From: Marchantia polymorpha subsp. ruderalis
Taxonomy: Eukaryota > Streptophyta > Marchantiopsida > Marchantiales > Marchantiaceae
Length of the DNA stretch: 64,000 nt
Direction of reading: 5' to 3'
Assembly (NCBI GenBank): GCA_037833965.1
Contig: AP031357.1
Span: forward strand, 19,116,001 to 19,180,000
In this document: positions 25,522 to 63,859 of the stretch, in pieces
Position numbering within the stretch: position 1 is the stretch's first letter
Layout: each line of letters opens with the position of its first letter
The notes under the pieces: generated by a model
Database searches by the model: none
What the model was told of the DNA's origin: nothing
What the model saw: the letters and a program-made list of their open reading frames with translations, nothing else
Translations under genes and position numbers: made by a program

Positions 25522-27273
25522 TTATGCTCGTCTACGCAGTCCGAGCTGCCTCAACACCTCAGTCAACTCCGCCTCGAGGTTCGCAATAGCATCCCGCGAC
25601 CTGGAGAGGAACGCCTTCAACCGTTTTGCCACCCGCCGCCAACTTCGTCCGTCGTCAGCCATCAAGGCAGTTGCGCGCATTTTGAGCTCACGCAACGTCA
25701 CCCTCTCCTGAATTGCAACCTCCCATTGAGCATAACCCCTTAGACAACGGCCAACCCGCGCAACTAATTCCTTCCACGTGCGATCTGCCGCGCGCCGGTT
25801 GTGGCCTTCAACCTCGGCCATCTGTAACTCCGCCGCCGCTCGCTGCGCTCTCAATTCTTTGCATTGCGACTGCAGTCTCCCCATCAATTCCTTGTCCATC
25901 CTCCTCGCAGTCTCGCTCTGCTCTAACTCTTGCGTATTCCGCACGAGCTCATCCGCCATATTGCGGGTTTGAATTTGCTCGACACTGAAGTCCGTCTGGA
26001 CCTTCGCACACATCTCATCAATTTCGCGCCGCGCATTTGCCACCATCTCATCTCGCAGCTTCAACGCCGCCTTTTGCAGTTTCCGGGCTAAGGCCCATTG
26101 ATCCTGCAGAAAGTTGTAGCGCTCCTCCAAGTTCCGGTACTTCTGGTCTTGGGCAATCAACTCAGGATTTGCCGCCACTTTGATCCGCGTCCGATGTCGG
26201 ATCAGCTCAATGTAGGATCCACCCTGATGAGGGTCCCCGTACTTGGCCGCCTTGCGGTCAAGGTACCGGGGTAACGGTACAACTTGCTCACACAGCACCC
26301 CGGTCTGCGTGCCTCGCACCGACTGCACTTCCTCTTCCTTCGAAAACGTGTCGTCTTCTGACTCCATGATTTCTGTTGTTGCCGATATCCTGGACGATTC
26401 TCTAGCACTGGGCCTCACAGCCTCCTCCGTTGCGGCCTCCACTCCATGCCCTGCTAACATCTCCAACGGGGTGGGAGAATCTATTCCTAGGGGAGCAGTC
26501 AAATCCTTCCACTCCGGCTCCGCCGAAGGCAGCTCGGTTGCTTTCTGCGCCGAAGGCACACGTGTCCCCGCATCCCTGCCTTCGGCAGTAGGGATGTTTG
26601 CTAAGGGTCTCAGCGCCAAAGGCGCCTCCTCCGAAGGCACCTTGAACAGCAGTTGCCGCGAAGGCTCCTGAGCCGAAGGCGCTTGGGCCGAAGGCGTGTC
26701 TTTGAACGGCACTTGCTCTGAAGCCAAGCACACCTCTTGCGTAGGCACTCTGGCCGTCGCCACCAGCCTATCTCTCTGGCCCGAAGGTCTACGTGCTTCC
26801 TCCGAAGGCACATGTGCCTTCGGCGCAGGGAGGTTAGTCGACCTCCCAAGAACTCATGTACTCCCATCTTCCTCCTCTTAGGAAGGCGATCCCCTCAAAA
26901 TCGCAGCACGTCCCGTATCCGGGCTGCTGCCCGCTGTCAAAATCAGCTAGCGTGCCTTCTACTTTGGTCAGGCTTGCTCATTGATCGCCCGACGCCTCGA
27001 TGGAACAGCGACCGATTCTCGCCGTCTCATCTCTTCCTCCTCACCCAATTTCCGCTTCTTGGGTGTCTGCGCACCCCAATGCTCTTCCTCGATTCTCAGT
27101 CGGCCCGGCGATGTGATTGCCGGCACTTCGTCGAGGTCCGTATCAACCTCGACATCCCTCACAAACTTCCACAGATTCATCCTCGACAGCAAGGGAAATT
27201 GTTTCTTCTCCTCCGCCGTCAGACTTCCCATCGACCGATAAAAATTTATCGAGAACGGGGAGAGGTGATTAAT
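25522..27273 (-). pseudogene. Coiled-coil family protein copy Y (429-aa open frame, 5'-truncated)
   Basis: Function unknown. From 27273 downward it reads INHLSPFSINFYRSMGSLTA, then EEKKQFPLL, an acidic/basic linker and KKRKLGEEEE (possible nuclear signal). After a stop the same frame continues as a 429-aa open stretch (26811-25522): a low-complexity Pro/Ser/Ala/Glu segment built on recurrent PSAE/PSEE units, PLPRYLDRKAAKYGD, LIRHRTRIK, then about 200 residues of heptad-rich coiled coil ending LRQLGLRRRA. The start at 27273 abuts the terminus of copy R4 exactly, so the N-terminal half is missing. I recall similar hypothetical proteins from Marchantia. Whether they are Gag-like proteins of a retroelement or domesticated genes is open. 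Confidence 0.6.
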
Positions 27274-36127: not shown

Positions 36128-36307
36128 TTCATATCATCTTTGTTGAGGTAAACTCCAGTGAAGTAGTAACCTTGAATCCTAGCTAAATATAGATAAGACG
36201 GTCGCCTGGACGAGGTATAAATATCTCGACTTCACATGTACAATAAGACTCTTTTTTAGAGTGAGAGACGTTAAGTAAAGGTGCTCATGTTTTTTATGGA
36301 CGTAGGC
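36128..36307 (-). repeat. Right arm of fold-back element, inner part
   Basis: Its reverse complement reads cctcgtccaggcgaccgtct, then tatatttagctaggattcaa and ggttactacttcactgg, matching the left arm and the solo arm at 5110-5360. The arm is cut at 36307 by the insertion of element B and resumes at 42375. Confidence 0.7.
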
Positions 36308-36727
36308 TGTAACCATCTTTAGTTAGTTAGAACTAAAGTAGAGGTTACTCTGAATATTGATGTAGATACTTTAGTGTGCACTAGTCATAGCTGCCACGTC
36401 AGCGATCCGCGCACTTGGTAGGTACAGAGTGGATGTGTTAGTTGACAGTGCCACGTCAGCAATCCGTGTGCTTGTAGCTAAGGATTGAGTGTGTTAGTTA
36501 GTGTGTTAGTTAGGTGCGCCACGTCAGCGATCCGTGTGCTTGTTAGGGTTATCCGCCACGTCATCCATCCACTATGAGAGGTATGGATGGTGGGGATTAG
36601 ATCTTATCACCTTGTACTTGTTGGTGAGAGCTATATAAGGGAGAGGATAACCATTGTTGGTATCTCTCATCTTCAGAGTTTACGTTTCTATCTTCGAGTG
36701 AACTTCTCTCTAAACCCTAGTGTTACA
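36308..36727 (+). repeat. 5' LTR of element B
   Basis: TGTAACCATC...AGTGTTACA. It contains four ACGT-core motifs in U3 and a TATA box (ctatataagg, 36631-36640). No difference from the 3' LTR was seen by eye over 420 bp. Confidence 0.97.
36393..36640 (+). promoter_or_regulatory. U3 enhancer-like repeats and TATA box of element B
   Basis: gccacgtcagc occurs at 36393-36403, 36450-36460 and 36518-36528, and gccacgtcat at 36555-36564. Each lies in a diverged tandem block with cgatccgtgtgcttg and gtgtgttagtt. Read on the other strand the core is TGACGTGGC, the type of site bound by plant bZIP factors (ABA, stress and unfolded-protein response classes). The TATA box lies 67 bp downstream of the last motif. 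Binding is inferred, not shown. Confidence 0.6.
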
Positions 36728-36728
36728 A

Positions 36729-36740
36729 TGGTATCAGAGC
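36729..36740 (+). other. Primer-binding site, initiator tRNA-Met
   Basis: TGGTATCAGAGC begins one base after the LTR end and is the standard complement of the 3' end of plant initiator tRNA-Met, used to prime minus-strand DNA. Confidence 0.93.
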
Positions 36741-36891
36741 GACCTTGCTCTTTCCTTGAGTGTGGATTACCCCTCATGGAATAGCAAGTGAGTGATGATG
36801 GAGTGTAGTCTTGAGAGTGTATAGAGGCTGGCAGAGGTCATTCATCTGCATGTAGAGAGAGGTGGAAGGGGGACATTGTGTTTTTGCAGAT

Positions 36892-37110
36892 ATGGACGGG
36901 ATTGACAGGAATCCAGTACCGCACTGGCCAATTCCTAACCTATTCGATATTCACCTTCGTTGCATGGAGAAACATCATTTTCGGATGTACCTTGTGGCTT
37001 GTTGGGGTGCAGATTTTATGACTAGAGTGATGGAGTCAAGAGTGCCACTGATTCTTCCAATAGTTACTTATGGAGAGACTTGGGATTGTACTATATACAT
37101 TCTATACTGA
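36892..37110 (+). CDS. Small leader frame 1 of element B (72 aa)
   Basis: ATG at 36892. It holds MDGIDRNPVPHWPIPNLFDI, then YLVACWGADFMTRVMESRVP. Its C-terminal half resembles the next frame (FLVACWG/DFM...VMESRVPLILP against FLVRNYGEEYYRAVIESPAP). No known domain. It lies between the primer-binding site and gag. Whether it is translated, acts as an upstream ORF, or is a relic is unknown. Confidence 0.4.
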   Translation: MDGIDRNPVPHWPIPNLFDIHLRCMEKHHFRMYLVACWGADFMTRVMESRVPLILPIVTYGETWDCTIYILY

Positions 37111-37324
37111 TTGTTTCATGGATTTGAATCGCGAACCACCTGTCCCGGTTCGATTCAGCACTTATGTAGAGATTAGAACAGTATATAGACAGAAGAGGAT
37201 ATGGAGAGATTTTCTTGTGAGGAATTATGGAGAGGAGTACTATAGAGCTGTGATAGAGTCACCTGCACCTTTTGTGACTCCTTTGTTGAGAGGTCACATA
37301 GTGATTATACTCACTTTGTATTAG
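37070..37324 (+). CDS. Small leader frame 2 of element B (84 aa)
   Basis: ATG at 37070, overlapping frame 1 by 41 nt in another frame and ending 17 bp before the gag ATG. It contains NREPPVPVRFSTYVEIRTVY and RDFLVRNYGEEYYRAVIESP. The resemblance to frame 1 points to an internal duplication. Unknown function; translation is not shown. Confidence 0.4.
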   Translation: MERLGIVLYTFYTDCFMDLNREPPVPVRFSTYVEIRTVYRQKRIWRDFLVRNYGEEYYRAVIESPAPFVTPLLRGHIVIILTLY

Positions 37325-37341
37325 AGGGAGTGTGAAAAAGC

Positions 37342-38505
37342 ATGGGAACATCAATTGATATGGGTGAGGTTCTCAATGCAATCATGGCAGAGATGAAGGA
37401 GTTGAGAAAAGCGATAGTAGATGGGCATACCAAGCAGCAAGCCATGGAAGATAAAATCTTTGCATTAGAGAGTGAGAAAGTAGAGAGAGAGAGAGTTGGA
37501 GAGATGGAAGTTGAACCTCAAGTTCAAGCTTCCCAAGTTCAGCCAGAACCAACTCCTATTGATGCAGCAGAGGCAAATAGGAGACGTCTTCAAGAGATTG
37601 AAGATCAAGCAAATCTTTTGCTTCGAATGGGAAAATCCTGTAAGGTGGAAGCTTACAAAGGGAGTAGAGCAATGGGAGTGTTAGAGGGATGGATTATGAG
37701 GATGAATATTCATTTATCCCATTTTCATGTTTCTGATTATATTGCAGGAATGTTCATGAGATCTTATCTTACGGATAAGGCTCTCACATGGTACACAACA
37801 TGGGAGAGAATGCTTTCAGAACGAGGTGCTACCATTTCGTGGAGTGGAATGCAGGAAGGACTTCTGCAAAATTTTCAAGCGGTGGATTCTCTTCAAACTG
37901 CAAGAATGAAGTTGTGGGATCTGAAGCAGAAAGGAGGTATTCATGAGTACATTGAAGAATTTCGTGATCTTCAAGTATCTATCATGGATATGAGTGGAGC
38001 TGAAGCCTTGGACGTGTTCAAACGAGGCTTGAAAGATCGAATTCGAAAGGAGGTGATGGTAAGCAATCCATCTACTGTGAATGAAGCAATCGCAATTGCT
38101 CAACGAATTTCAGGTGCTTTTGGTGTCACACACGGTGAGCCAGTGAGCAATTTTAGAGATCCATCTGGTCCAACACCGATGGAGTTGGGAAACCTTCGAC
38201 GTAGAGAAGGTTTTGCACCAACAAGAGGACCACCACCAAGATTTGGAGGTGAGATTAGGCGACCAGGAGTTCCAAATTTGCAAGAAGGTTATGCAAATAA
38301 TGGAATGGTTCGAGGAGGAGCTGGAGTTCGTGACAATCGCCAATGCTATGCATGTGGACGAATGGGCCACATAGCCAAGTTTTGTCGAGTTCGGCCGACA
38401 CAACAAGGAGGACGGCCCATGCAGCGACGACCGTTCAACAATATGGAGGGGATAGAGTATGAAGAGGTGGAGGAAGCAGTTTCGGGAAACGAAGATCACC
38501 AGTAA
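37342..38505 (+). CDS. Element B Gag (387 aa)
   Basis: Capsid/nucleocapsid precursor that would package element RNA in cytoplasmic particles. The N-terminus (about 1-75) is charged and coiled-coil-like ([20 protein letters not shown]). A capsid-type Retrotrans_gag region is at about 100-250 ([49 protein letters not shown]). A Gly/Arg/Pro-rich stretch leads to one CCHC zinc knuckle at about 335-348 ([14 protein letters not shown], nt 38344-38385). ATG at 37342. The last 43 nt overlap the pol frame and carry the slippery heptamer, so most product should be Gag, with a minority read into pol. No damage was seen. Confidence 0.95.
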
Positions 38506-41500
38506 TCTTGCCTCGCGGCCTTACTGGTTCTACAAAGCGAAGAAAAGGCGAGGTTGGAAGAAAGCAATGGTTGGGAGCTCATGGAAGGAGTAAGAAGCAA
38601 GCTCAACTCATTGTCACTGATGGTTTCATGGAAGGACACAAGGTGAGAGTTTTAATTGATCCTGGAGCAACTGAGAATTTTCTATCAAGGAGTGTTGCTA
38701 TGAAGTTAGGTTTGATGTTGATGAAGGACGTGAGTGAAGAAGTTGAATTGCCAAACGGGCAAACTGAAGTGATAGAAACACTACCACGGAGTGTAGAATT
38801 ATCCATAGGTAGATACAAGGAGAGCATTGAATGGAGAGTAATTCGTTTAGCTCGGTATGATGTCATCCTTGGAATGCCATGGATGGAACAATATAATCCG
38901 AAGGTAGATTGGAGAAGAAAAGTGATTACAAGTAGTGGATGGAAGATCTATGGAGATAGAATTAGATCTCAGAATAGGAATTTACCCCTCTTTGTGATGG
39001 GTACAGCATCCATTTCTAGAGATGATGTATGTTTCCTTGGACTTATAAGAGATATTGGGTCCACGGACAAACCTTACATCCCGGAGTCCTTGAACGACAT
39101 TTTTATGGAGTATAAAGATGTTTTTCCAGATGATCTACCTGCAGGATTACCACCAAAGAGGCGAGTTGATCACAAGATTGAGGTGATACCTGGAAGTACA
39201 CCAACTTGCAAAGCTCCATATCGTTTGGCTCCAAACGAATTGGAAGAATGCAAGGCTCAAGTGGAGGAGATGTTGAGCAAGGGATTCATTCAACCAAGTG
39301 TTTCACCTTATGGAGCTCCAGTACTCTTTGTGAAGAAGAAGGATGGATCCATGAGACTATGTATTGATTATCGCGGGTTGAATCAGCAAACGGTGAAAAA
39401 CAAATATCCATTACCTCGTATGGATGATTTGTTTGATCAACTTCAAGGAGCGAAGTACTTCACCAAGCTAGATTTGAGAAGCGGCTACAATCAAATTCGA
39501 ATTGCAGATGAAGATGTTCACAAGACAGCTTTTCGTACTAGGTATGGACACTTTGAGTATCTGGTGATGCCTTTTGGTCTCACTAATGCACCAGCTACAT
39601 TCATGGGATTGATGAACGATATCTTTCGCCCTTATCTAGATAAATCTGTCATTGTTTTTCTAGATGATATATTGGTGTATAGCAAAACTTTGAATGATCA
39701 TAGAAGTCATTTACGAGAGGTACTTCAAGTTTTAAGAGACAATCAATTGTATGCCAAAGCTTCAAAATGTGAATTTGGCAAGTCAGAAGTAGATTACTTG
39801 GGTCATAGAGTTACAGCTACAGGAATCCAAGTGATGAGTGAGAAGATAGATGCCATTCAGAATTGGATAGCACCTGAGGATCAAACTCAATTGAAGAGTT
39901 TTCTAGGGCTCACTGGATTCTATCGTAGATTTGTGAAAGGTTTTGCTCGACTAGCTCAGGCCTTGACTTCCATGTTAGGGAAAGGTCAAAAGTGGAGATG
40001 GGGAACAGCTCAAGAGTTAGCTTTTCAAGCATTGAAAGATGCTTTGTTACACGCACCTATTCTCAAGTGGTATGATCCTAACCGTTCTATCAAGTTGGCC
40101 ACTGACGCATCAGGTACAACAGTAGGTGGCATACTTCAACAAGAATGGGAGGATGGATGGCATCCAGTTGCTTTCTATTCTCGAAAGTTGGTGGCGGCGG
40201 AACAAAATTATCACACGACAGAACGGGAGGAGTTAGCTATCGTGTTGGCAACCAAACATTGGAAGCATTATTTGGGTGATAAGGAGTTTGTGGTGGAGAC
40301 TGATCATAAACCCTTGGTTTATTTGGAAACTCAGAAGGATCTGTCCAAACGACAAATTCGATGGGCAGAGTGGCGTCAACGCTTCAACATGAAGATTGTG
40401 TACGTGGAGGGAAAGAAGCAACTTGCAGATGCTCTCACACGCATGCCTTGTTTGAATCATGTTGCAGAAGTGAAAATTCAGGCGGATTGGTGGAGCAAGA
40501 TGTCACAAGCCACAAAGGAGGATGAAGAGATCACTCGAGCACTACAAACTGGAAAGGCAGAGAAATCTCGAGGTTTGGCGTTTTACAATCAGCGTATATG
40601 GATTCCACAAGATCAGGATTTGCGCACAATGATTTTGGCAGAAAGTCATGATACAGCCATTGCAGGTCATGTGGGAGTGGAGAAAACCGTGGAGAGTATA
40701 CAACGAGTGTACTATTGGCCCAAAATACGTGAGGATGTGGAGTCTTACGTTCGAAGTTGTGTTGCTTGTCAACAAAACAAGGCAAGTAATCAAAAACCAG
40801 CGGGTTTATTACAACCTCTTCCTATTCCCGAACAGCGGTGGGAACATGTCACCATGGATCTTGTATGTGAGTTACCAAGGACTTCGTTAGGACATGATTC
40901 AGTGGTGGTTTTTGTGGACAAATTGAGCAAGATGATTCACATCAGGCCAACCACAAAAACAGTAACAGCTCCACAACTAGCTCAATTGTATCTAGATGCA
41001 GTTTTTGTGAATCATGGCTTAAGCAAAGTGTTAATCACGGATAGAGGTACTCACTTCACTAGTTTATTTTGGAAAACTTTGTTTAGTTTTTTCAAAACAA
41101 AACTAGCAATGTCAACGGCCTATCACCCTCAAACTGATGGACAAACTGAGAGGGCAAATAGAACCATAGAGGATATGCTACGAGCATTCACATTAGAAGA
41201 GCAAGAAGAGTGGGACAACCTTTTGCCACTTGTGGAATTTGCATATAACAATTCTGTTAATGCATCCACAAAAGCGTCTCCATTTTTTCTTATGTATGGA
41301 GCTCATCCGATAACTCCTTCAAGTTTGATAAGACTTCCGAAAGGAGAGGAGTTTTCGACCAAAGTTGCAGCAGTCAACGAATTCGTGGAGCATATTCACC
41401 GAGGACTACATCAGGCCAAGGAGAAGTTGGTGATAGCTCAAAATCGGCAAAAGCAGCATGCCGATGCTCATCGTAGAGAAGTGATTTTTGAGGTTGGAGA

Positions 41501-41936
41501 TCATGTTTGGTTATCTACAACGAATTTGTCTCTTGTAGGAACATCAAAGTTAAACCCTAGGTTCATTGGTCCATTTTTGGTTTTGAAGCGTGTTGGTGAA
41601 GTGTCATACAAGTTGGAACTTCCGTCACATATGAAAATACATCCAGTATTTCATGTGTCACGATTGCGAAAACATGTACCACGACCAAAACAATTCACCA
41701 ACCAACCAGCACCACCTCCTCTTCCAACCTTGATAGCAGATCATGAGGAGTTTGAGGTAGAAAAGATACTCAAGAAACGTATTCGAGGTCATAAATATCC
41801 CAAAGTAGAGTATTTGATTCAATGGAAAGGCTATCCATCGTATGAATCAACTTGGGAACCAGCTAAAAATTTAGCAAATGCACCTTTGATAGTTCAGGAG
41901 TTTGAACGTATGTGCAACGAGGACGTTGCATCTTAA
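38463..41936 (+). CDS. Element B Pol: PR-RT-RH-IN-chromodomain
   Basis: The frame opens after a stop at 38460 and has no ATG near its start; the first useful in-frame ATG (about 38629) lies inside the protease. It is probably made as a Gag-Pol fusion. Protease: [12 protein letters not shown] (D-P-G-A where D-S/T-G is usual). [22 protein letters not shown] and FLDDILVYS. RNase H: LATDASGT and [10 protein letters not shown]. Integrase: HHCC zinc finger near 40645-40780 (ending CVACQQNK), then the acidic triad in [17 protein letters not shown] and [13 protein letters not shown] module: [20 protein letters not shown]. Chromodomain at 41748-41915: [38 protein letters not shown]. Chromodomains of this class bind methylated histone tails and steer integration. 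The frame is complete to the stop at 41934-41936. Confidence 0.96.
38484..38553 (+). other. -1 programmed ribosomal frameshift signal (slippery site plus pseudoknot)
   Basis: GGGAAAC at 38484-38490 is split G GGA AAC in the gag frame; slipping back one base gives GGG AAA in the pol frame, exactly the frame open from 38463. After a 7-nt spacer, ACCAGTAA (38498-38505) pairs with TTACTGGT (38521-38528) around a 15-nt loop. Within that loop CCTCGC (38511-38516) is complementary to GCGAGG (38548-38553), giving an H-type pseudoknot. The gag stop (38503-38505) lies within the first stem. This is the layout of viral -1 frameshift cassettes; GGGAAAC is a known efficient heptamer (used by luteo-/poleroviruses). 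The pairing was found by eye. Confidence 0.8.
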
Positions 41937-41947
41937 AAGGAGGGAGG
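41935..41947 (+). other. Polypurine tract of element B
   Basis: aaaaggagggagg overlaps the pol stop codon and ends two bases before the 3' LTR. It would prime plus-strand DNA. The same tract precedes the LTR fragment at 21872, and a decayed one precedes 57425. Confidence 0.9.
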
Positions 41948-41949
41948 TT

Positions 41950-42369
41950 TGTAACCATCTTTAGTTAGTTAGAACTAAAGTAGAGGTTACTCTGAATATT
42001 GATGTAGATACTTTAGTGTGCACTAGTCATAGCTGCCACGTCAGCGATCCGCGCACTTGGTAGGTACAGAGTGGATGTGTTAGTTGACAGTGCCACGTCA
42101 GCAATCCGTGTGCTTGTAGCTAAGGATTGAGTGTGTTAGTTAGTGTGTTAGTTAGGTGCGCCACGTCAGCGATCCGTGTGCTTGTTAGGGTTATCCGCCA
42201 CGTCATCCATCCACTATGAGAGGTATGGATGGTGGGGATTAGATCTTATCACCTTGTACTTGTTGGTGAGAGCTATATAAGGGAGAGGATAACCATTGTT
42301 GGTATCTCTCATCTTCAGAGTTTACGTTTCTATCTTCGAGTGAACTTCTCTCTAAACCCTAGTGTTACA
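41950..42369 (+). repeat. 3' LTR of element B
   Basis: 420 bp, TGTAACC...GTTACA, apparently identical to the 5' LTR, and followed directly by the target duplication taggc. Confidence 0.97.
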
Positions 42370-42374
42370 TAGGC

Positions 42375-60865: not shown

Positions 60866-63154
60866 GCAGAATCTGATTGCAGTAAGGTGGGTGGGCTCTC
60901 CATGGTGCAAGAGGTGCATCGATCGAGCAGACATTGCATCTTCTTCTCCGCCGAGGGAGCCGCCGCGTGCACATCGATCACGCCACATATGCATTTTTCG
61001 CTTCCGGGCTCACTTTATTGAGTGAGCTTTGGGTCGAAATCTGCTCCTGCTCCAATCATTCTCTTCCCTTTCATTCATTGCGCCTGCTAAAGATGTCATT
61101 GTTTGCCTGTCGATGTGTTTTGATCATGTTTCTGCGCTGGCATGCATAGTCATGAGGTGCATGTACCACGGGACGTCGTCGATTAGAACCGCGTACGGCA
61201 AGAAATCTGTGACCAGTACATTGACAAAGTCCTTCTACATGGTAAGGCCGTCCTGCTTGATCGCTGTACTGTCCGCTCTTTCCCCAACTTGACTATTTGA
61301 TGTGTGTCCAATTTGCATACCAAAAGTTGACAATGAGAGCGTCATGCATGTTAATCATGCAGCGAACGCAATCGTGATTTAGACTCGTCAAGGACACAAA
61401 TTTGGGTCTTTTTACTCTCATGTGTGATATTAGTACATTGACGTACATGCATCTACTGGACGGAAGCTTCGAAATGGTACAACATGTGCAATTTAAAATT
61501 ACAATCCTTTGGTAAATCATCAGTTTAGGAAAGGTTGTTTTTGTAATATAAATGTTCCAATTATCTTGTCAATTACAATGCAACGCTTTCCTGAAAATTC
61601 TGTAAAATAAAGGAGAGAAATAATCATGAATAACTACACAGGAGTAATTCAAATCTCTTAAGATAAATACAAATAATTTGTATTAAATGTAGCTTTAAGT
61701 GTTTAAGAGCTAAATTTATTTTTAATGAATTTTATGAATAATATTTAAAAAATATATTATTTCATGAATCATGAACATAAAAATAAATTAATAATGATTT
61801 GTTTCTAATGATAAATCCAAATCAGATTACCTTACAAATTCTACATCATTGAAAAATGAACACTATAGGGGAAACTAGTGTGAATTTGCTCATTCAACAC
61901 TACTTTCAGACTATTTTCAATTGATCAAATCAAACCAAATTTATTTTTTTCGTTTTTTTTATTGATATTTCAAAATTTTTTTTGAAGATGTGCTTCAAAT
62001 TTTTTTGTGTGAACTTTTATTAATGATTAACTTTTAAGCTGGAAATATTGAGATTTCTAAGAGATGTAAAAAGTGACGAACTGTGCAGTATCCAAATGGT
62101 CGCCACAACAGGACAATAGGGACATCACGAACCGAGCCAGCCTGCGTAGCCAACCACGGTCGGCGACCCCCGGTAGTACAGTACGGCGTGAAGGAACACA
62201 GTAGCTCGACAGAGCCAGATCTCGTGCACGCAAGTATCTCCAGTTCGCAACGTCGTTCGTCGAACTCGGGCCATGTCTCGTCGCCCGTCGCGTCAGAGTG
62301 TGTGCTCGTCGGGACAGCCGTCTCCATTTGGCGACCGAATGGGTCGCGGTAGATCCACCATCGGCGGGCACCGACATGTGACGACGCAGGAGATCCCACG
62401 GCGCAGCCCCGGGATCTTTTGTGCAGCGATATTCTCTCGATGCCTGCCTCACTCCCTCGTTGCCACTCCGGATTTCTGGGCCCCGAGCTGGCATGAATGA
62501 ATCGCAGATGTGGATCATGCGCGTGGCTCGCACAAGTCCATGACAGTCGCATTTATGGAGCAGATCGCGATCCTCCCGAGTTCAATGTGACCGCGCGAGA
62601 GAGAGAAAGAGGGACCACCTGCTACATTCTCTCGAGAGCTCAGTCGATTCGACTATCGGCCGCCAGTTTCACGGGTGCTGATAACTTTCCGAGACAGCCA
62701 CCATCCAGGGACTCGTGAATCCTGGCCGTGGGGAGAGAAGAGCGAGAAGTAAAACTTTGTCCTCGCTCGGATTCTTGTCGAGCTACCTACGTACGTCCGG
62801 TAGCATCAAGGGGCACCCACCTGAAGTTGCTCGGAAAGGCCGCGATAGATGGATGGATTAGTTGACTGATAGATAGAGAGATTGATTCATTGATTGATTG
62901 ATTGATTGATTGTCCGAGGCCTCGGGACTGTTCTGCAGCGGCGTCTTTAGTGAATGCCATGAGTGCGCGAGCTCCAGATTGGGAGCTAGCGCACGGCATG
63001 CTTCGGGCGAATTGTGGATTCGGGATTAGCTCGTGACGAGCTTCTCGTCTCGCTCGGTAGTGCAGCAGTAGCGTCTTATCGCTGCCACCTGCGGCCTTCC
63101 GTGGTTTCTGACAGCCGGCGAGAAGCGAGGGGAGGGGAGGGGAGGGGAGGGGAA
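60866..63154. other. Intergenic; upstream region of the last gene
   Basis: 60866-62040 is mixed, with AT-rich parts and no gene. 62050-63150 is GC-rich and probably holds promoter and leader of the 63155 frame. It ends in a gggga tandem run (63129-63152) directly before the ATG. The 172-aa minus-strand frame at 62034-62552 lacks any family signature and looks compositional. Confidence 0.4.
62881..62912. repeat. GATT simple repeat
   Basis: Short microsatellite of gatt units (attgattcattgattgattg and on) in the upstream region of the 63155 gene. Confidence 0.9.
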
Positions 63155-63859
63155 ATGAACAAGACAAAAGACCAAGAAGAGCTTCAGACCTTCGGGTCGA
63201 ATTTCACGCCCAAGCGTCGGTCGCTGTTTCAGAGCAAGAGCTTCAATCCCGGAGGCATAGACCAAATGTTCGTATCCGTAAACAAGCCCCAGGTGCCCAA
63301 CAGGGAAGATTGGTCGCATTTGACCACCACGAGCACCGAGCAGAATTTCGGATCGCCTCTCGTCGCGCCCAAGAGAGTCACTTCTTCTCCTGCGGCCGAG
63401 AGCGCCACGAACCGCAGCGTTGTGAAGACGATGAAGGACGACGAGGAGAAGAATTCCACTCTCAAGCTCCGACTCGAGGCTATGACCTGGGCAGCTATGG
63501 CCAAAGATGCCACAATTCTCGCCCTCCAGCAGAGGTTGAAGGCTGCACTCCTCTCTCTCCAGAACGAACGAGACGCCAATGCCCAACTCAAGGTCGAGCT
63601 GGAGATGAGCGGAAAGGAAGTCAGACCGAAGCAGCAGCAGCAGCCGTCTGAGATGCAGAGGGAGGGCGACTCGCAACCACAGTCTGAGAAGGATGCAGCA
63701 TCTGCTCTGCAGCAGCAGCAGCTGGGGGAGGAGGAGGAGGACAGGGAACAAGAAGCCTCGGTTCTGGATTCCGACAAACAACTAAATCCATCGGAATTTC
63801 GATCATCTCTTGTTTTGGATTCGCAGCAACAGCGGCAAGCGTCGGGTTTCCCCATCTAG
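63155..63859 (+). CDS. Unrecognised coiled-coil protein, 234 aa
   Basis: Not assigned to a family. ATG at 63155 follows a long gggga purine run; an in-frame non-ATG extension to 63014 is possible but less likely. The N-terminus is basic and Ser/Phe-rich (SNFTPKRRSLFQSKSFNPGG). Residues about 95-155 form a heptad-rich coiled coil (EEKNSTLKLRLEAMTWAAMA, ILALQQRLKAALLSLQNERD). Then come Gln-rich runs (KQQQQPSE, LQQQQLGEEEEDREQ) and the end SLVLDSQQQRQASGFPI. No signal peptide or membrane segment. Codon quality and length suggest a real intronless gene. A scaffold or microtubule-associated role would be a guess. Confidence 0.6.
   Translation: MNKTKDQEELQTFGSNFTPKRRSLFQSKSFNPGGIDQMFVSVNKPQVPNREDWSHLTTTSTEQNFGSPLVAPKRVTSSPAAESATNRSVVKTMKDDEEKNSTLKLRLEAMTWAAMAKDATILALQQRLKAALLSLQNERDANAQLKVELEMSGKEVRPKQQQQPSEMQREGDSQPQSEKDAASALQQQQLGEEEEDREQEASVLDSDKQLNPSEFRSSLVLDSQQQRQASGFPI

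Follow-up and report, generated by a model that had tools for sequence, protein, structure and literature searches.

A probable programmed -1 frameshift cassette between gag and pol in a young chromovirus of Marchantia polymorpha

In retroviruses and plant RNA viruses, -1 frameshift signals combine a phased slippery heptamer, a spacer of 5-8 nt, an H-type pseudoknot and an overlap of gag and pol. Such signals are familiar from viruses and from the elements of animals and fungi, but have hardly been described in plant retrotransposons. The accessible passages of one review name G_GGA_AAC and U_UUA_AAC among the shiftiest heptamers on mammalian ribosomes, and relate that, in a survey from 2003, pol stood in the -1 frame in 28 of 51 animal elements, many of them with placed heptamers, and separate frames occurred in only two plant types, both with pol in +1 (PMC5009743). 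Green-plant elements have one ORF in most groups and two in some (PMC6317226, available parts). The prevalence of a single ORF leaves the excess of Gag over Pol in plant LTR elements largely unexplained. According to the available parts of a further paper, SM-Tcn1 of Selaginella is a chromovirus with two ORFs, gag and pol, and the Tcn1-like clade extends over fungi, mosses and lycophytes (PMC2864245).

Here we describe an LTR retrotransposon within a window of 64,000 nt, the whole stretch of Marchantia polymorpha subsp. ruderalis DNA that was analyzed (contig AP031357.1; positions below are those of the window unless a contig or locus is named). Its gag/pol junction resembles the viral signals in its phased heptamer, spacer, predicted H-type pseudoknot and overlap, but differs from them in that it belongs to a plant LTR retrotransposon, in that the gag stop lies inside stem 1 and in that slippage is something we infer. 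The -1 position of its pol relative to gag is shared with those animal and fungal LTR retrotransposons that have a -1 pol, and sets it apart from the two plant types of the 2003 survey, with pol in +1 (PMC5009743, accessible passages). It also differs from the Sireviruses, plant Ty1/copia elements and thus of another superfamily, which are described, in the parts of the literature available, with pol in +1 and a hairpin instead of the predicted pseudoknot. Like SM-Tcn1, it is a chromovirus of a non-seed plant with two ORFs, whose sizes are similar in the two elements; the available parts of that description give no frame relation or recoding signal for SM-Tcn1, which moreover has no recognized primer site, whereas the element has a plant-type one (PMC2864245). 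The chromodomain is group-I-like, as in the Tcn1-like clade, and the likeness to Tcn1 is one of ORFs and chromodomain, our reverse transcriptase (RT) tree being confined to the window element, a diverged relative from the same genome (L036) and the contaminant loci described below. The domain order from protease to chromodomain is that of the angiosperm chromoviruses (Tekay, CRM, Reina, Galadriel), although the chromoviruses of Beta vulgaris are described, in the accessible parts of the source, with one continuous gag-pol ORF (PMC3605345). Within the open-licence literature, as covered by the titles, abstract starts and passages listed, we found no such signal described for a chromovirus, a moss, a liverwort or a plant retrotransposon, and as far as these searches reach a -1 frameshift signal is new there for a plant retrotransposon.

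The element and its gag/pol junction

The element is made up of the following features.

36303..36307, no strand: target site duplication, left copy TAGGC (printed flanks)
36308..36727, + strand: 5' LTR, 420 nt, identical to the 3' LTR (LTR comparison)
36729..36740, + strand: primer binding site TGGTATCAGAGC (element sequence)
37342..38505, + strand: gag, 387 aa counted from the first ATG (ORF)
37645-38106, + strand: capsid of gag (Pfam)
38338-38385, + strand: CCHC zinc knuckle of gag (Pfam, just below cut-off)
38503-38505, + strand: gag stop TAA (sequence reading)
38463..41936, + strand: pol frame, 1157 aa, with protease, RT, RNase H, integrase and chromodomain, -1 relative to gag (ORF, Pfam)
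41751-41909, + strand: chromodomain of pol (Pfam)
41935..41947, + strand: polypurine tract, preceding the 3' LTR (element sequence)
41950..42369, + strand: 3' LTR, 420 nt (LTR comparison)
42370..42374, no strand: target site duplication, right copy TAGGC (printed flanks)

The whole retrotransposon spans 36308-42369, with LTRs identical across 420 nt. Pfam matches exceeded the cut-off for the capsid, PR, RT, RH, Integrase_H2C2, SH3 and Chromo, and fell just below it for zf-CCHC (20.2 vs 20.8) and rve (28.1 vs 32.6). Since a Ty3-type capsid is combined with protease, RT, RNase H, integrase and chromodomain, in the order gag capsid, CCHC, PR-RT-RH-IN and C-terminal chromodomain between LTRs, we classify the element as a chromovirus. 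F, W and Y of its chromodomain align with the positions of the aromatic cage of HP1, as in group I chromodomains with such a cage. The primer site TGGTATCAGAGC is of the plant initiator-Met tRNA type. An earlier note on this DNA had called the element a young plant chromovirus, and the identical LTRs, the 5-bp target site duplication, the primer site and the domain order bear this out. Elsewhere in the window, two open frames have no Pfam match (25522-26853 on the - strand, 443 aa; 62990-63859 on the + strand, 289 aa).

The junction between gag and pol contains the following features.

38463..38505, + strand: gag/pol overlap, 43 nt (ORF reading)
38484..38490, + strand: slippery heptamer G GGA AAC in gag phase (sequence reading)
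38491..38497, + strand: spacer, 7 nt (sequence reading)
38498..38505, + strand: stem 1, 5' arm ACCAGUAA, holding the gag stop UAA (pairing)
38511..38516, + strand: stem 2, 5' arm CCUCGC; 38510 can add a G-U pair (pairing)
38521..38528, + strand: stem 1, 3' arm UUACUGGU (pairing)
38548..38553, + strand: stem 2, 3' arm GCGAGG; 38554 can add a G-U pair (pairing)

The earlier note's reading of these letters was confirmed throughout. The gag frame runs from stop to stop over 37336-38505 and pol, in -1 relative to it, overlaps it by the 43 nt described; pol has no ATG near its start, the first in its frame, found by eye, being at 38628, just before the protease. GGGAAAC stands in the exact phase (gag reads it as TCG GGA AAC, pol as GGG AAA CGA) and is the only X XXY YYZ within 38440-38640. 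After the 7-nt spacer, all eight pairs of stem 1 are Watson-Crick (ACCAGTAA, 38498-38505, with TTACTGGT, 38521-38528), and the gag stop is buried in its 5' arm. All six pairs of stem 2 can form as well (CCTCGC with GCGAGG, with a possible extra G38510-T38554 wobble), giving a predicted H-type pseudoknot with stems of 8 and 6-7 pairs.

The ATG at 38628 would suit a slippage-free route to Pol: splicing that spans the junction, internal initiation, or re-initiation past the gag stop. Splicing has parallels in plant elements: the available parts of two sources state that Ogre elements splice between their ORFs (PMC6317226) and that EVADE and BARE1 produce spliced Gag RNA (PMC12786077). Such a route gives no reason for a heptamer in phase or for the pseudoknot. 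Moreover, the Gag part of Gag-Pol is thought to carry Pol into particles, and free Pol would be without it. We therefore regard a slippage-free origin of Pol as very unlikely, and favor -1 slippage at the heptamer.

How readily the cassette could arise by chance was assessed for its two parts separately. Shuffling the overlap with dinucleotides preserved produced an in-phase heptamer (X XXY YYZ, with Y being A or T and Z not G) in 2.3% of cases. For the H-type pseudoknot, the stacking of the two helices was summed into one score; shuffling the 80 nt downstream in the same way matched the score of the element in 1 of 2000 cases, and none of 310 places in its own pol did so (0/300 and 0/207, respectively, in an earlier bulge-free run). 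Among the 653 slippery heptamers scored on both strands of the window, only the one at 38484 reaches -30 (0 of the other 652). Folding without pseudoknots revealed no unusual stability of the cassette stretch (z -0.70; 43 of 200 shuffles fold as well), and we rejected thermodynamic stability alone as support. Since the nested fold has a z of only -0.70, the distinctive feature of the cassette is its pairing pattern, while its overall stability is ordinary.

The nested minimum-energy form (-17.6 kcal/mol) is in fact another hairpin, with outer pairs from 8 nt past the heptamer and neither stem in register; taken alone, stem 1 yields -7.6 kcal/mol and stem 2 -9.4 kcal/mol. It would be conceivable that this simple hairpin, instead of the pseudoknot, stimulates -1 slippage at the heptamer. 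However, stem 1 is perfect and begins at the canonical distance, and the two-helix fold is possible in all three chromoviruses considered here and almost never in shuffles, so we judge a hairpin stimulator unlikely and prefer the pseudoknot.

The junction across the family

We searched the genome (241 Mb, 9 contigs) for further copies; in DNA searches the best 40 candidates were scored, in protein and family searches up to 150, and copy counts are therefore lower bounds. With a 301-nt junction query, the best 40 of 580 candidates were scored and all were 100% identical, and with a protease query the best 150 of 2478 showed 98-100% identity. In at least 51 copies, gag and pol are each uninterrupted from stop to stop (389 and 1157 aa, respectively) and lie at a fixed 947-nt offset, a count obtained by joining stop-free gag rows of 389 aa (89 among the best 150) with stop-free pol rows of 1157 aa (68 among the best 150). 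With the two frames open and equally spaced in so many copies, the overlap is a state of the family and not one copy's recent indel.

The earlier note had looked to other copies for an invariant heptamer and for compensatory changes in both stems. GGGAAAC is kept in 57 of the 62 family junctions read (30 of which had been fetched as identical copies) and changed in 5. Two-sided compensatory changes were absent from these 62 rows of a near-clonal family, in which a few one-sided changes keep a G-U pair. Departures from the window in heptamer, helices or by insertion were seen in 15 of 62 junctions, with at least one broken pair in 11. Most of the departing junctions belong to older copies, as expected for dead ones, but a broken pair also occurs in L073 and L085, which are 99% identical. 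Four rows (L067-L070) have in common a base that costs stem 2 one pair, and a weaker stem 2 may thus once have been present in a live sub-lineage. The family tree, from which L069 and L078 were excluded as too short, is star-like, with 3 of 28 inner branches well supported; hence, neither constraint nor covariation is demonstrable within the family, and we rejected within-family covariation as a test for so young and star-like a family.

In one copy, L091 (95% identical), gag and pol are joined in a single frame here, the junction being 2 nt shorter and the heptamer altered. The earlier note had taken a copy of this kind to mean that the overlap is a recent indel. When the best 40 of 501 candidates for the L091 junction were scored, 38 of the 39 others spanned 2 nt more and one spanned 1 nt more, and the 2-nt loss is private among 31 aligned rows, being absent from the other 30. 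We accordingly rejected L091 as an ancestral single-frame form, as none of the 39 other scored matches has its junction length and the loss looks private. It is likely a private change in an old copy, a polarity that is probable rather than proved because only 3 of 28 tree branches are well supported. L091 shows that fusion happens, yet the overlap is not thereby shown to be recent.

L091 nevertheless lends something to the view that the overlap is a fixed indel in a formerly one-frame element, with heptamer and helices coincidental and the copies mobilized in trans. So does L036, with gag-PR-RT in a single frame at 40% identity, and so do the descriptions of one ORF in Beta vulgaris chromoviruses and most plant LTR groups (PMC3605345, PMC6317226, available parts). 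The two long open frames kept at fixed spacing in at least 51 copies speak against it, since an untranslated pol would not be expected to stay open in a spreading lineage. Additionally, the old copies sampled (93-96% identity) have no indel in the overlap, the heptamer and the pseudoknot are each improbable by chance, and the same design stands in two diverged chromoviruses. A fixed indel is, in our view, very unlikely, and a functional overlap is the better account.

Apart from the junction, 53 of the 61 family copies inspected have IDPGAT as the protease active-site motif (window 38655-38672), and the remaining 8 differ at the P position; a proline at this place is unusual among retroviral-type proteases. 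On contig C3 (G000:C3:30250435-30273342), four family copies lie head to tail at 5635-nt spacing, followed by one in the opposite orientation, which suggests that the head-to-tail copies form a tandem array with common LTRs. A chromodomain match at C2:9044387, considered as a separate family, proved to be another old copy of the same family (L102).

Diverged chromoviruses and the proposed mechanism

Scanning bacterial and archaeal genome contigs revealed ten eukaryotic-looking chromovirus-like loci (L092-L101); the records holding them, filed as bacterial or archaeal, look like eukaryotic contamination. Two of the ten, L092 and L098, have separate gag and pol frames, with pol in -1 in both. 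L092 has an overlap of 43 nt, with T TTA AAC as the sole heptamer in the stretch shown, a 6-nt spacer, a stem 1 of 10 pairs with one bulge (GCUCACUAAG with CUUAGCUGAGC) and a stem 2 of 8 pairs (CAGGUGUA with UACACCUG). L098 has an overlap of 40 nt, with C CCA AAA as the sole heptamer in the stretch shown, a 5-nt spacer, a stem 1 of 10 pairs (GGCCUAGUGG with CUACUAGGUC) and a stem 2 of 7 pairs (GCGUCAG with CUGAUGC). In both, the gag stop lies within the 5' arm of stem 1. Their pseudoknots score about -30, which none of 2000 shuffles equalled in either case; a one-nucleotide bulge in stem 1 had been admitted to the search after L092 was read by eye, and a bulge-free search gives no L092 pseudoknot. 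A phased heptamer appeared in 1.2% (L092) and 4.0% (L098) of shuffled overlaps, and places in their own pol scored as well as the junction in 0 of 154 and 1 of 350 cases, respectively. The chromodomain exceeds the Pfam cut-off in both, and the gag match of L098 falls below it. RT identity to the window element is 64% for L092 and 47% for L098, and the helix letters, as printed, differ among the three, only the design being common.

The other contaminants showed no frame change or lacked part of the region: gag and pol share one open frame in L096, L097, L099, L100 and L101; L094 has one frame at the junction, with gag broken further upstream; L095 starts inside pol; and L093 has no gag match, so that its junction may be missing. 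As a control, we took the gag-to-protease stretch, with hand-set bounds, of eight loci without a frame change (L036, L093, L094, L096, L097, L099-L101, of which L093 may start downstream of its gag). None of the 11 slippery heptamers in it, 5 of them in phase, has a comparable pseudoknot (best score -17.6, off phase; best in phase -14.3).

Taken together, phase, rarity, copies and the two diverged chromoviruses support the claim of the earlier note that Gag-Pol is made by -1 slippage, and we hold it very probable that the junction of this young plant chromovirus acts as a programmed -1 ribosomal frameshift cassette. Our high confidence in -1 frameshifting is due mainly to the recurrence of the design in L092 and L098. 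Most ribosomes would read gag to the UAA in stem 1 and release Gag. A minority would be stalled by the H-type pseudoknot, if it forms as predicted, with GGA in the P site and AAC in the A site, and a tandem slip back by one base, from GGA AAC to GGG AAA, would let them read on in pol. The product would be Gag-Pol, and slippage could control the ratio of the two proteins, with much Gag and little Gag-Pol. The high-copy element thus offers a compact viral-type signal in a plant that is testable by reporter.

That three diverged chromoviruses share one design suggests a solution that is old or easily re-invented. Possibly, though we put this forward only tentatively and with more doubt than belief, -1 frameshift cassettes whose stem 1 holds the gag stop are ancient and recur in chromoviruses of different kingdoms, with the design preserved and the helix letters changing. 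If so, bryophyte elements would still use the cassette, and the single-frame chromoviruses of seed plants would have lost it and needed another route to excess Gag. An overlap of about 40 nt, a phased heptamer and a stop in stem 1 provide a search rule for other elements of non-seed plants, e.g., SM-Tcn1.

Other loci

L036, with no chromodomain seen in the piece read, was the only other chromovirus kin to surface in the searches of the source genome, and IMG/VR scans revealed no relative. Among the loci from a gag Pfam search (L031-L060), 29 of 30 were set aside as having no tblastn match to gag or pol, L036 alone having matched. In L092 (L092:1-5625), the end of pol is followed by an LTR-like stretch and then by gag and pol again, as in an assembly of a circle or a tandem. 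L041, L048-L050, L052 and L054-L060 represent another gag-bearing family of the source genome, with many similar copies and an open frame of 942-945 aa; four of its copies lie in tandem, 10,662 nt apart (G000:C6:10774136-10806418).
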